Shown piece after piece: positions 21,329 to 31,205 of a DNA stretch of 64,000 nucleotides. The stretch's first letter is position 1, and each line of letters begins with the position of its first letter. The position numbers were made by a program, and so were the translations under genes. Source of the stretch: Halogranum gelatinilyticum (lineage in GTDB: Archaea > Halobacteriota > Halobacteria > Halobacteriales > Haloferacaceae); assembly GCF_900103715.1 (NCBI RefSeq), contig NZ_FNHL01000002.1, forward strand, positions 868,001 to 932,000, read 5' to 3'. The notes beneath the pieces were generated by a model. It had not been told where the DNA came from. It saw nothing but the letters and a program-made list of their open reading frames with translations, and did not search any database.

Positions 21329-21422
21329 CGACGCCTGCGGGACAGCTGCTGCGACGACCCGACTCCTTCTCTCCCCACTAGTACGGTGGATTCGTATTTC
21401 TACGTGCGAGACCCGCTGCGTC

Positions 21423-27592: not shown

Positions 27593-28114
27593 CTACGGGA
27601 GCAACACGCCGTTGATGACGTGGACGACGCCGTTCGACGCCTCGATGTCCACGAGGTCGAGGTCGAACAAGGTGGCCTGACCGCCGTTCAGGGAGGTCCC
27701 GTCGACGTCGACGAACTGGCCGTTCAACATGCGGATTTTCGGGGCGTTCACGACGGACGGCGAGTAGCGTCGCCCGGGCGTCACGTGGTAGAGGAGGACG
27801 TCGAGGAGGAACTCGTCGTCCAGCTCGTCGACGTTGTCGACGGTGATGCCTGCCTCGTTGAACGCCTCGTCCGTCGGTGCGAAGACGGTGAACTGTCTGT
27901 TACCGCTGAGCGTCTCGACGAGTCCTGCCTCGGTCACTGCAGCGGCAAGCACGTTGAAGCCGTTCGCGATGGCGATGTCGACGATGGTCATGTCGCCGGA
28001 CGCTCCCGTATTCTTTCCTTCGCGGGCCGACGCCGTGCCGACGCCACCGACTGCCAGAATCGCGCCTGCTGCACCCGCAGTCCGTAAGAATTTCCGCCGC
28101 TGCTGGTCGATCAT
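27593..28114 (-). CDS. TAT-exported fasciclin (FAS1) domain protein
   Basis: A 173-residue secreted protein. The twin-arginine leader QQRRKFLRTAGAAGA ends near VGTASA, and one FAS1 domain follows: DIAIANGFNVLAAAVTEAGL, QFTVFAPTDEAFN (H1 motif), LLDVLLYHVTPG (YH motif) and VVHVINGVLLP (H2 motif) at the C-terminal end. FAS1 domains bind other surface molecules and mediate adhesion. It is a single-domain form with no obvious membrane anchor. Convergent with hpt (99 bp) and divergent from the LOV regulator. Confidence 0.9.
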   Translation of the reverse strand: MIDQQRRKFLRTAGAAGAILAVGGVGTASAREGKNTGASGDMTIVDIAIANGFNVLAAAVTEAGLVETLSGNRQFTVFAPTDEAFNEAGITVDNVDELDDEFLLDVLLYHVTPGRRYSPSVVNAPKIRMLNGQFVDVDGTSLNGGQATLFDLDLVDIEASNGVVHVINGVLLP

Positions 28115-28286
28115 TGGATAACTCCGATATATTAGAAGAACGGTACAGTCATAGCCAGATTACCTTACCAGTCCGGTCGCCGTGGAACGCCTCGGGCTGC
28201 TGACCGTCCTGTTGACTGTCGCGAGGTGTAGCATTCGTGAGTCATCCCGCGACGTCGGGCGCAGGAGGACGTCAATCGGAGTCGGA

Positions 28287-28321: not shown

Positions 28322-29911
28322 ATGGGCGAATCCGAGGGAGAACCCGGGGTGGACTTCGAGCTCAAGGAGCGTGCGATGGACAAGGCACCCGTCGGAATCA
28401 CCATCTCCGATCCCAGCCGCGAAGACAACCCGATGATCTACGCCAACGAGGCCTTCGAACGGCTGACCGGCTACCCACGGACAGAGGTCCTCGGCCGCAA
28501 CTGTCGGTTTCTCCAGGGTGCGGCGTCCGCACCAGAGGCCATCCGACAGATGTCCGAAGCGATTGCCGCGGACGAGGAGACGACGGCCGAGTTGGTGAAC
28601 TACCGGGCGAACGGTGAGGCCTTCTGGAACGAGGTGACGATCGCTCCACTTCGTGACGAGGATGGGACGGTGACCCACTACGTCGGCTTCCAGAACGACG
28701 TCACGGCTCGCAAAGAGGCAGAGTTCGAGGTCATCCAACGCACCGAAGACCTCGAACATCTCGTCCGTCGCATCAACGGTCTGATGAAGGACGTCACGGA
28801 GCGGTTGATGCAATCGACCTCCACGGAGGAGGACCTACGGAAGGTGACCGAACGGATTGCTGCGGCCGACCCGTACGTGTTCGCCTGGTTCGGTGAGCCG
28901 GACCTGCTCTCGGAGACGGTCGTGCCGTCCTCGTGGGCGGGCGAGGGCGACTCACTCGAGGGTATCGAGGTCGCAATCACCGACGACGACCCGACAGCCC
29001 GAGCCTTCGACACGCGGTCGGTCCAGACCGCCCCCGTCGACGGGACGGTCTGCTCGGACTCGCTTCCCAGCGCACGGTCGCTGGCTGCCGTTCCAGTCAC
29101 CTACCGGGAGACCGTCTACGGTGTTCTGACCGTCTACTCCGACACGGACGACGTGTTCGACGAGCGCGAGACGGTCGTCCTCGAGGCACTCGGTCGGACG
29201 ATTGGGACGGCCATCAACGCCAGAGAGAGTCGACGGATTCTCACGGCCGACAACATCGTCGTCCTGGAGTTCGAGGTGAGCGACCCGGCACTGTTCGTCG
29301 TCGACCTCTCGGCCCGAGAGGACTGTCGACTCGAATATCACGGGTCGATCGACCCCGAGAACGACGCACTGTCGATGTTCTTCTCTACGGATGCACCGCG
29401 CACGAGACTCGTCGACCTCGCCGAGGAGGCCGCCGAGGTCGACCGTGCGACGGTAATCAGCGGCGACGACGAGGCGAACCTCGTCGAATTCCGGATGGCA
29501 GAGACCTCGGTCGTTGCCGAGCTGGCGGAACGCGGCGTCATCACACGTTCGATTGTGGCGGCCGACGGGCGGGCCCACATCACTCTGGAACTCCCGTCGG
29601 CGGTCGACGCGCGAACGATTGCGACACTACTCCGGGACCGCTATACCGGGACCGAACTCGTCGCGTCACGGACACGCGACCGCCCGGCGACGACGAAACA
29701 GGAGTTCATCGCCGGTGTGGAGGCGCAACTCACCGACCGTCAGGTGACGGCCCTTCAGAAGGCATATCTCAGTGGGTACTACGCCCCGAACCGTTCCACG
29801 ACTGGCGACGAACTGGCCGAGTCGATGGGCATCTCGCGCGCAACGTTCCACCAACATCTCCGAGCGGCGGAACAGAAACTGATGGCAGAGTTCTTCGACG
29901 CGAGAACCTGA
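28322..29911 (+). CDS. LOV-GAF-HTH_10 regulator (bacterio-opsin activator type)
   Basis: A 529-residue regulator. The N-terminal PAS is a complete LOV domain: GRNCRFLQG with photoactive Cys61, flavin contacts Asn60, Asn93 and Asn103, and the signal Gln124 in YVGFQNDVT. A coiled-coil-like linker, a GAF-type region (about 165-305), a bacterio-opsin-activator-type middle domain and a C-terminal HTH_10 (about 470-529: LTDRQVTALQKAYLSGYY and MGISRATFHQHLRAAE) follow. Bat-type proteins activate transcription, classically the bop genes under low oxygen and light. Here no rhodopsin gene is nearby. Blue-light sensing is inferred from the intact Cys. Confidence 0.88.
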   Translation: MGESEGEPGVDFELKERAMDKAPVGITISDPSREDNPMIYANEAFERLTGYPRTEVLGRNCRFLQGAASAPEAIRQMSEAIAADEETTAELVNYRANGEAFWNEVTIAPLRDEDGTVTHYVGFQNDVTARKEAEFEVIQRTEDLEHLVRRINGLMKDVTERLMQSTSTEEDLRKVTERIAAADPYVFAWFGEPDLLSETVVPSSWAGEGDSLEGIEVAITDDDPTARAFDTRSVQTAPVDGTVCSDSLPSARSLAAVPVTYRETVYGVLTVYSDTDDVFDERETVVLEALGRTIGTAINARESRRILTADNIVVLEFEVSDPALFVVDLSAREDCRLEYHGSIDPENDALSMFFSTDAPRTRLVDLAEEAAEVDRATVISGDDEANLVEFRMAETSVVAELAERGVITRSIVAADGRAHITLELPSAVDARTIATLLRDRYTGTELVASRTRDRPATTKQEFIAGVEAQLTDRQVTALQKAYLSGYYAPNRSTTGDELAESMGISRATFHQHLRAAEQKLMAEFFDART

Positions 29912-30008
29912 CCAGTAAGGTATCGCCGTTTGGGCAGTGGGTCTCGTCGGTGTATGTACAAGGTCGCACTCACGGAGCAGAGAGAGTCGACGACCGACGA
30001 GAGAAAAC

Positions 30009-30188
30009 ATGACAGAGTGTAATTACTGTGGAAGTAACGTTTCGCACGACTTTGCCCGTGTCTTCGCCGATACGAACGGACGCATCCTCGCGTGTCCTTC
30101 CTGTTCGGCGAATGCAGGCATTGCGGATGTGGCGGTGCAGAGAGCCGAGCAGTTGGCGCAGGCAGGTCAGGAGCCGGCCGAACTGTAA
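30009..30188 (+). CDS. Small zinc-finger protein
   Basis: A 59-residue protein with two Cys pairs, CNYC at 4-7 and CPSC near 33-36, a typical small haloarchaeal zinc finger (CxxC-CPxC). The segment HDFARVFADTNGRILACPSC is the conserved core; I believe the family is DUF7563. The C-terminal 20 residues are Gln/Glu-rich. Start is the ATG at 30009; the longer in-frame extension is Arg/Ser-rich and not protein-like. It lies 97 bp after the LOV regulator and may be co-transcribed. Such proteins are probably regulatory or nucleic-acid binding. Confidence 0.8.
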   Translation: MTECNYCGSNVSHDFARVFADTNGRILACPSCSANAGIADVAVQRAEQLAQAGQEPAEL

Positions 30189-30320: not shown

Positions 30321-31205
30321 ATGTACGACCGAATCCTGGTACCCACAGACGGCAGCGACTGGGCGATGGCAGCCGCGAACCACGCCTTCGCGCTGGCCAA
30401 ATTGGGTGATGCGACGGTCCACGCGCTGTCGGTCGTCGACCTCAGGCATTTCGAGGACGACGTGGTCGGCTCGGCCAGCGAAGACCTCTCTATCGCCGAA
30501 CAGGCCGCCAAGGCTGCCGTCGAGCGCGTCCAGCAGGTCGGCGAGGAGAGTGGCTGTCGCGTCCGGACCCACGTCGAACGTGGAATCCCCCACGAGACGG
30601 TGCTCCGGTTCGTCGCCGACCACGACGTCGACCTCGTCGTCATGGGCACCCACGGCCGGACGGGGCTGGAGCGGTTCCTGCTCGGCAGCGTCACCGAGCG
30701 CGTCCTCCGCGGGTCGCCCGTGCCGGTGCTCACTACGCATCTCGACGGCGACGGCGGGACGCTGCCGACCTACGAACATCTGCTCGTCCCGACCGACGGC
30801 AGCGAGGGCGCGCGCGACGCGCTGGACCGCGCCGTCGCGGTCGCCACGGCTGCCGGGGCACGGCTGACGGTGCTCTCGGTCGTCGATTCGCGGGCGTTCA
30901 CCGGCGGCTTCGAAACCGGCCCGACGCTGCCGAACATCCGCGAACAGCTCCAGCAGTACGCCGAGGACGCCGCGGACGCACTCGTCAGGCGGGCGGCGGA
31001 CGCTGGCGTCGACGCCGACAGCGTCGTCACGGTCGGGCTTCCGGCGACCGAGATCACGGCGTACGCCGAGAGCAACGACGTCGACCTCGTCGTCATGGGC
31101 ACCCACGGCCGCAGTGGGCTGGAACGGCTCATCCTGGGGAGTGTCACCGAGCGAGTGGTCCGCACGTCGGAGACACCCGTCTTGGCCGTCACGCCGACCG
31201 AATAA
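30321..31205 (+). CDS. Universal stress protein, two tandem UspA domains
   Basis: A 294-residue protein containing two UspA domains in tandem: YDRILVPTDGSDWA with GTHGRTGLERFLLGSVTERV, and YEHLLVPTDGSEGA with GTHGRSGLERLILGSVTERV. The latter blocks contain the G-x2-G-x9-G-S/T ATP-binding pattern, intact in both halves. Haloarchaea have many such proteins, acting in stress tolerance; the ligand is ATP or related nucleotides. The two halves are clearly homologous, which indicates an internal duplication. Start ATG 30321. Confidence 0.9.
   Translation: MYDRILVPTDGSDWAMAAANHAFALAKLGDATVHALSVVDLRHFEDDVVGSASEDLSIAEQAAKAAVERVQQVGEESGCRVRTHVERGIPHETVLRFVADHDVDLVVMGTHGRTGLERFLLGSVTERVLRGSPVPVLTTHLDGDGGTLPTYEHLLVPTDGSEGARDALDRAVAVATAAGARLTVLSVVDSRAFTGGFETGPTLPNIREQLQQYAEDAADALVRRAADAGVDADSVVTVGLPATEITAYAESNDVDLVVMGTHGRSGLERLILGSVTERVVRTSETPVLAVTPTE

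Follow-up and report, generated by a model that had tools for sequence, protein, structure and literature searches.

Archaeal proteins that combine a LOV domain with an HTH domain have been listed since 2014, without a proposed DNA site or target in the literature that we reached. The locus described here, from the archaeon Halogranum gelatinilyticum, raises the question of what such a regulator might control in a genome that lacks rhodopsin. We analysed a 64,000-nucleotide stretch of contig NZ_FNHL01000002.1 (positions 868,001 to 932,000), referred to as the window, and positions given below are those of the window unless another location is named. The gene at issue, here termed LOV-Bat, occupies 28322-29911 on the forward strand, starts with ATG and encodes 529 amino acids.

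Pfam analysis of LOV-Bat returned four domains, all above cut-off and in the Bat-type order: PAS_9 (residues 23-129), GAF_2 (167-298), BAT (PF15915; 310-462) and HTH_10 (470-522). The PAS_9 match is the LOV domain (28388-28708, forward strand), which carries GRNCRFLQG at residues 58-66, corresponding to the GXNCRFLQG motif with the adduct cysteine Cys61, as well as the flavin-contact residues Asn93, Asn103 and Gln124. The original prediction, made from the sequence, had named these four residues together with Asn60, and its numbering proved exact when checked in the translation. The GAF and HTH_10 domains that it listed were also recovered by Pfam; the BAT domain had been overlooked there, and its presence makes the assignment to the Bat type firmer. 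The top matches of the PAS domain among solved structures are LOV photoreceptors, namely 6hmj (2e-32), 9vf7 and the YtvA-derived 4gcz, and superposition of the predicted LOV core on 3t50, a LOV domain from Brucella, gives an rmsd of 0.7, indicating a LOV/PAS fold. The fold prediction has a mean pLDDT of 85.7 and a pTM of 0.46, and because of the latter value the placement of the domains in the model is unsure. In this model one long helix, residues 128-164, joins the LOV core to GAF. The HTH_10 DNA-binding domain (29729-29887, forward strand) has Gln511 in its recognition helix. Sequence, predicted fold and the conservation described below support the identification of LOV-Bat as a LOV-controlled Bat-type transcription factor, which would undergo LOV photochemistry, bind DNA and respond to light. 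The blue-light transcription factor originally proposed fits this description.

A profile search for rhodopsin (PF01036) gave no match anywhere in the query genome, a 3.77-Mb assembly that is 99.7% complete. The search works, since it detected rhodopsin in 272 of the 392 genomes of the order. The earlier remark that no rhodopsin gene is nearby thus holds genome-wide; for this reason we class LOV-Bat as Bat-type and not as Bat proper, and control of a rhodopsin by LOV-Bat in this genome was rejected. The search for brp/blh (PF15461) also gave no match, and its control search was equally silent. The genome has 29 HTH_10 matches. It also encodes a second canonical LOV protein (G000:C2:710198-710557, minus strand), with a 618-amino-acid open frame, the motif GRNCRYLQG and an architecture read by eye as receiver, LOV, PAS and histidine kinase. 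A short LOV-like protein (G000:C5:167348-167683, plus strand), in which Pro replaces the adduct Cys (GENPRLLQG), lies ∼1.6 kb from an HTH_10 match.

Matches to LOV-Bat at E ≤ 1e-60 were present in 309 of the 392 genomes. For comparison we used 141 relatives, made up of 140 regions taken from the best listed matches downwards and of L001 from Halorarius litoreus (68% identity to LOV-Bat); the last nine listed matches and the unlisted ones fell outside the set. Asn60, Cys61, Gln65, Asn93, Asn103 and Gln124 are kept in all 141 relatives, which belong to several families, although the set leans towards LOV since its members are the top scorers to a LOV-bearing query and Cys-less Bats are therefore under-represented. 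A 142-row tree, built by a quick method and containing several long branches, joined the query to L001 (SH-aLRT 99), then to L045-L048 (99), with L049 as sister (98).

Comparison of the ends of the LOV-Bat genes in close relatives first revealed a palindromic motif in the query clade. In its exact 16-bp form, ACCNNACYRGTNNGGT, it has two copies in the 3.77-Mb genome, and both flank LOV-Bat. Places with one mismatch say little, since there are 35 of them versus 17 for the reversed pattern. Candidate operator 1 (ACCTTACCAGTCCGGT, 28162-28177, no strand assigned) lies 47 bp before the ATG of a divergent gene for a fasciclin-domain protein and 144 bp before that of LOV-Bat. Candidate operator 2 (ACCTGACCAGTAAGGT, 29906-29921, likewise without strand) overlaps the LOV-Bat stop codon and is 87 bp before the ATG of a small zinc ribbon gene, DUF7563. 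With a position weight matrix (PWM) built from 26 sites, none of them in the query clade, candidate operator 2 ranked first in the window (score 21.8) and candidate operator 1 second (17.4). Across 30 Markov windows the mean maximum was 9.3, the highest maximum 18.8 and the highest second match 12.7; one of the 30, that with 18.8, topped the score of candidate operator 1. A third, weak site in the window (21371-21388, CCCCACTAGTACGG core), which scored 12.4 and lies between ORFs, after one that looks nucleotidyltransferase-like by eye, was not counted, as the Markov windows reach that score. What we take to be the form of the bop UAS, ACCcnactagTTnGG, has a spacing equal to that of the palindrome; a text search of the literature for a UAS string matched no paper. 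In L001 the upstream site is again found with fasciclin, ∼42-48 bp before its ATG. No exact upstream site was found in the relatives that lack fasciclin there (L045-L049), L048 having a one-mismatch place. The downstream site has two mismatches in L001 and one each in L045, L046 and L048.

Over the 1.50 Mb of sequence from the 141 relatives there are 24 exact sites, of which 17 are at the LOV-Bat stop, one is upstream (L001) and six are elsewhere; four of these six sit in loci with an adjacent rhodopsin, and in L096, L102 and L129 the site just precedes the rhodopsin start. We compared the frequency at the stop with random placement of the 225-bp stretch (2000 draws): an exact site occurs at the stop in 17/141 relatives (random mean 0.55, maximum 4), and one with no more than a single mismatch in 31/141 (random mean 1.06, maximum 5). 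Among 1991 further plus-strand ORFs, of which many are spurious, the stops yielded no exact and five one-mismatch sites, and twenty permuted palindromes gave six sites altogether. The genes that follow the sites are mostly those for rhodopsin, phytoene synthase, exported DUF4397 proteins and DUF7563. Further exact 16-mers are present in the genomes of eight relatives. The top k-mers downstream of a large group of relatives, f7 (CAGTACAGGA and similar), were rejected as candidate sites, since they resemble part of the coding region of a conserved gene that comes next.

We also scanned the 392 genomes with a strict 18-mer, TACCNNACTAGTNNGGTA, irrespective of the presence of LOV-Bat. This gave 21 sites in 21 genomes, with none for the reversed-pattern control and none in the query genome. 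Twenty of the 21 adjoin rhodopsin, crtB, DUF4397, DUF7563 or a Bat gene. Seven of the sites precede a rhodopsin gene, whose ATG is 25-40 bp away. Six precede, at 45-46 bp, a gene for a DUF4397 protein that has a twin-Arg type leader, and a contig end beside a LOV-Bat truncates a seventh such case. DUF7563 follows in three, crtB in two and a soluble transducer in one, where the neighbouring Bat has a PAS that is not LOV. The single unexplained site (L227 / L242 site 6020, in G319) has no recognised Bat gene or target adjoining. Seventeen of the strict sites are within ∼1.8 kb of a Bat-type gene, and 16 of these genes are canonical LOV-Bats. The three before DUF7563 (G346, G239 and G379) come from the query's own family and are ∼64-66 bp before this gene: the distance to the ATG is 64 and 66 bp in L236 and L237, and L235 has an earlier ATG at 33. 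Because the Bat with a non-LOV PAS (L239) has the same operator, use of this operator is not confined to light sensors. At that locus (site 5098, G137) the palindrome is found shortly before a gene for a soluble transducer of the chemotaxis type. In G136 (L243, site 5001; L204) it also shortly precedes a soluble transducer, and the genome holds a close LOV-Bat relative.

The neighbours named in the original prediction, a fasciclin, a zinc finger and a universal stress protein, were confirmed by Pfam. The fasciclin-domain protein (27593-28114, reverse strand; PF02469), a proposed target, carries a twin-Arg type leader as read by eye from the ORF. It is shared as a neighbour by the query and L001 only (1/141 relatives). 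The DUF7563 protein (30009-30188, forward strand; PF24444), a proposed target and possible partner, is a 59-amino-acid zinc ribbon with CNYCG and CPSC. It falls within the definition of CPxCG-related small zinc finger proteins, given in PMC2253796 as two Cys/His patterns 7-40 residues apart, one of them CPxCG-like, in fewer than 100 amino acids. DUF7563 stands beside LOV-Bat in five of the six closest relatives (L001 and L045-L048, absent at L049). Over all 141 it is found within 500 bp downstream in eight, with two more ∼1.1-1.2 kb upstream; three of the relatives with this neighbour, L061, L062 and L065, are placed elsewhere in the tree. The query genome has 10 copies of DUF7563. Recurrence in the six closest relatives was limited to the zinc ribbon, the fasciclin (L001) and one UGDH match (L047), so that the universal stress protein Usp (30321-31205, forward strand; PF00582) and the other window genes tested were rejected as conserved neighbours. 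Rhodopsin lies less than 3 kb from LOV-Bat in 18/141 relatives, none of which has DUF7563 there. DUF4397 lies within 3.5 kb of LOV-Bat in 9/141, a label that, like crtB, was assigned by eye from the sequences of the relatives, the Pfam check being confined to the PF00494 matches of the query. In eight of the relatives (L076, L078, L083, L084, L088, L097, L101 and L123) the DUF4397-type proteins behind LOV-Bat have twin-Arg leaders and look exported, and the palindrome lies 46-47 bp before their starts. The 47-bp spacing from candidate operator 1 to fasciclin matches this DUF4397 spacing, as counted from the 16-mer. LOV-Bats of another family (L071, L077 and L080-L082) have a different zinc ribbon of 63-67 amino acids directly upstream on the opposite strand; a Pfam search with one of these gave ribbon matches that were all sub-threshold.

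The recognition helix offers a further line of comparison. Within the HTH_10 domain Thr508, His510 and His512 are found in 141/141 relatives and Arg506 in 140, and residue 511 is either Gln (64 relatives) or Glu (77). When up to one mismatch is allowed, 31/64 Gln511 and 0/77 Glu511 proteins have a site at the stop, and 37/64 and 1/77, respectively, have one within 3 kb. The 77 Glu511 relatives, all of which lack such a site at the stop, belong mostly to one clade. As judged from sequence, this supports recognition of the palindrome by LOV-Bat; the split at residue 511 follows clades, and the correlation is in line with such recognition rather than proof of it.

These observations bear on two other accounts of the palindromes, each of which we regard as unlikely. 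One is that an unrelated factor or another HTH_10 protein binds them, LOV-Bat being regulated and not a regulator. There is no shortage of HTH_10 proteins in the query genome, as the matches counted above show, and the strict sites of G346, G239 and G379 are 7-8 kb from LOV-Bat; against this, most strict sites are close to a Bat-type gene, usually a canonical LOV-Bat, and the presence of the site tracks residue 511 of the LOV-Bat recognition helix. The other, about equally improbable, is that the main target is crtB, so that blue light would control protective carotenoids in trans and the two flanking sites would be autoregulatory only. Phytoene synthase (crtB) does lie within 3.5 kb downstream of LOV-Bat in 21/141 relatives and is preceded by the palindrome; L049 is among them, as are L045-L048, where the zinc ribbon comes first. 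Furthermore, crtB1 is among the genes on which Halobacterium Bat acts (PMC1502140, PMC1885257). However, the crtB-like gene of the query is ∼36 kb before the start of the window, no site with two or fewer mismatches occurs near its start, and the best PWM score there is 5.0.

An alternative of a different kind concerns the signal. The main task of the LOV domain could be to sense oxygen or the redox state of the flavin, as has been proposed for a Cys-less Bat, with the photo-cysteine secondary. PMC4682037 and PMC3184054 describe, respectively, signalling by Cys-less LOV through flavin photoreduction, the Pro-bearing BAT-LOV* being readily reduced, and a response of Halobacterium Bat to low oxygen as well as light. 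Against this, every relative retains the Cys together with the complete adduct pocket, for which a purely redox function would create no need, and we consider this explanation slightly less likely than either of the preceding two.

Our favoured and probable interpretation is that the locus represents an offshoot of the Bat regulon without rhodopsin, with an exported adhesion-type protein and a zinc co-regulator as its new targets. LOV-Bat, with flavin bound and a functional photocycle, would bind ACCNNACYRGTNNGGT and control fasciclin and DUF7563 in response to light. Blue light would produce a Cys61-flavin adduct in the LOV domain of this one-component Bat-type regulator, and the signal may pass through the continuous helix 128-164 of the model to GAF, BAT and HTH_10. 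A dimer of HTH_10 would then bind both palindromes, the one at 28162-28177 ahead of the exported fasciclin and the one at 29906-29921, on the LOV-Bat stop codon, ahead of DUF7563, and may regulate the LOV-Bat gene as well. Fasciclin and DUF7563 are our choice of local targets because a palindrome precedes each of them, as one precedes DUF4397 or DUF7563 genes in relatives. The original prediction had left the target open; on present sequence evidence the conserved palindromes narrow it to these two candidates. The zinc ribbon may be a Brz-like partner, and a co-regulator role is plausible by analogy, because H. salinarum Bat works with Brz and Bat homologues lie near zinc-finger genes. More broadly, one operator could drive different genes in different lineages. 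Our tentative extension is that of a portable light regulon, in which the operator, often at the LOV-Bat stop, would drive whichever gene adjoins it, be it for rhodopsin, phytoene synthase, exported DUF4397, a zinc co-regulator or an exported fasciclin; if true, a surface protein of the adhesion type and a Brz-like partner would be switched directly by blue light in this rhodopsin-free archaeon. The conserved palindrome beside LOV-Bat makes the question of regulation answerable by a binding assay and transcript measurement.

Several known systems invite comparison. Halobacterium Bat uses a UAS to act on bop, brp, bat and crtB1 (PMC1502140, PMC1885257). Light induction of a bop reporter in H. 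salinarum required Bat, the small zinc finger Brz, and Brb (PMC3184054), and both Bat homologues of this organism have small zinc-finger genes adjoining or one gene away (PMC2253796). LOV-Bat resembles H. salinarum Bat in its PAS-GAF-HTH organisation and, if our reading is correct, in acting through an upstream site, perhaps with a small zinc finger partner (PMC3184054, PMC2253796, PMC1502140). It differs in that the H. salinarum PAS is without the adduct Cys (PMC4844311) and the protein serves bacteriorhodopsin, whereas no rhodopsin was found in the query genome. BAT-LOV*, with Pro for Cys (Yee et al. 2015, PMC4682037), likewise combines a LOV-like domain, GAF and HTH, but has an N-terminal REC, no adduct Cys and poor photoreduction, while LOV-Bat has the Cys and no room for a REC. 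ALovD-1 from Lake Diamante shares a canonical archaeal LOV domain with LOV-Bat and gave, in 2025, the first photocycle of this kind of domain, which is slow and works in 3 M salt (PMC12202551); the measurement was made on the isolated LOV domain, and most architectures in that paper end in histidine kinases. What is familiar as the purple-membrane regulon of Bat may be a broader system of light response that persists after rhodopsin is lost. The LOV-Bat class is itself already in print: HTH domains are present in about 30% of the 167 archaeal LOV proteins counted by Losi, Mandalari and Gaertner (2014, PMC4844311), some of these being Bat-like, and LOV-Bat matches this class in having LOV, GAF and a C-terminal HTH in Halobacteria. 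No operator for LOV-bearing Bats came to light in the literature searched, which mostly excluded subscription journals, and the available text of PMC4844311 proposes no operator, target or neighbourhood. To that class the present analysis adds a candidate operator, in the form of two palindromes, and candidate targets in the genes downstream of them.
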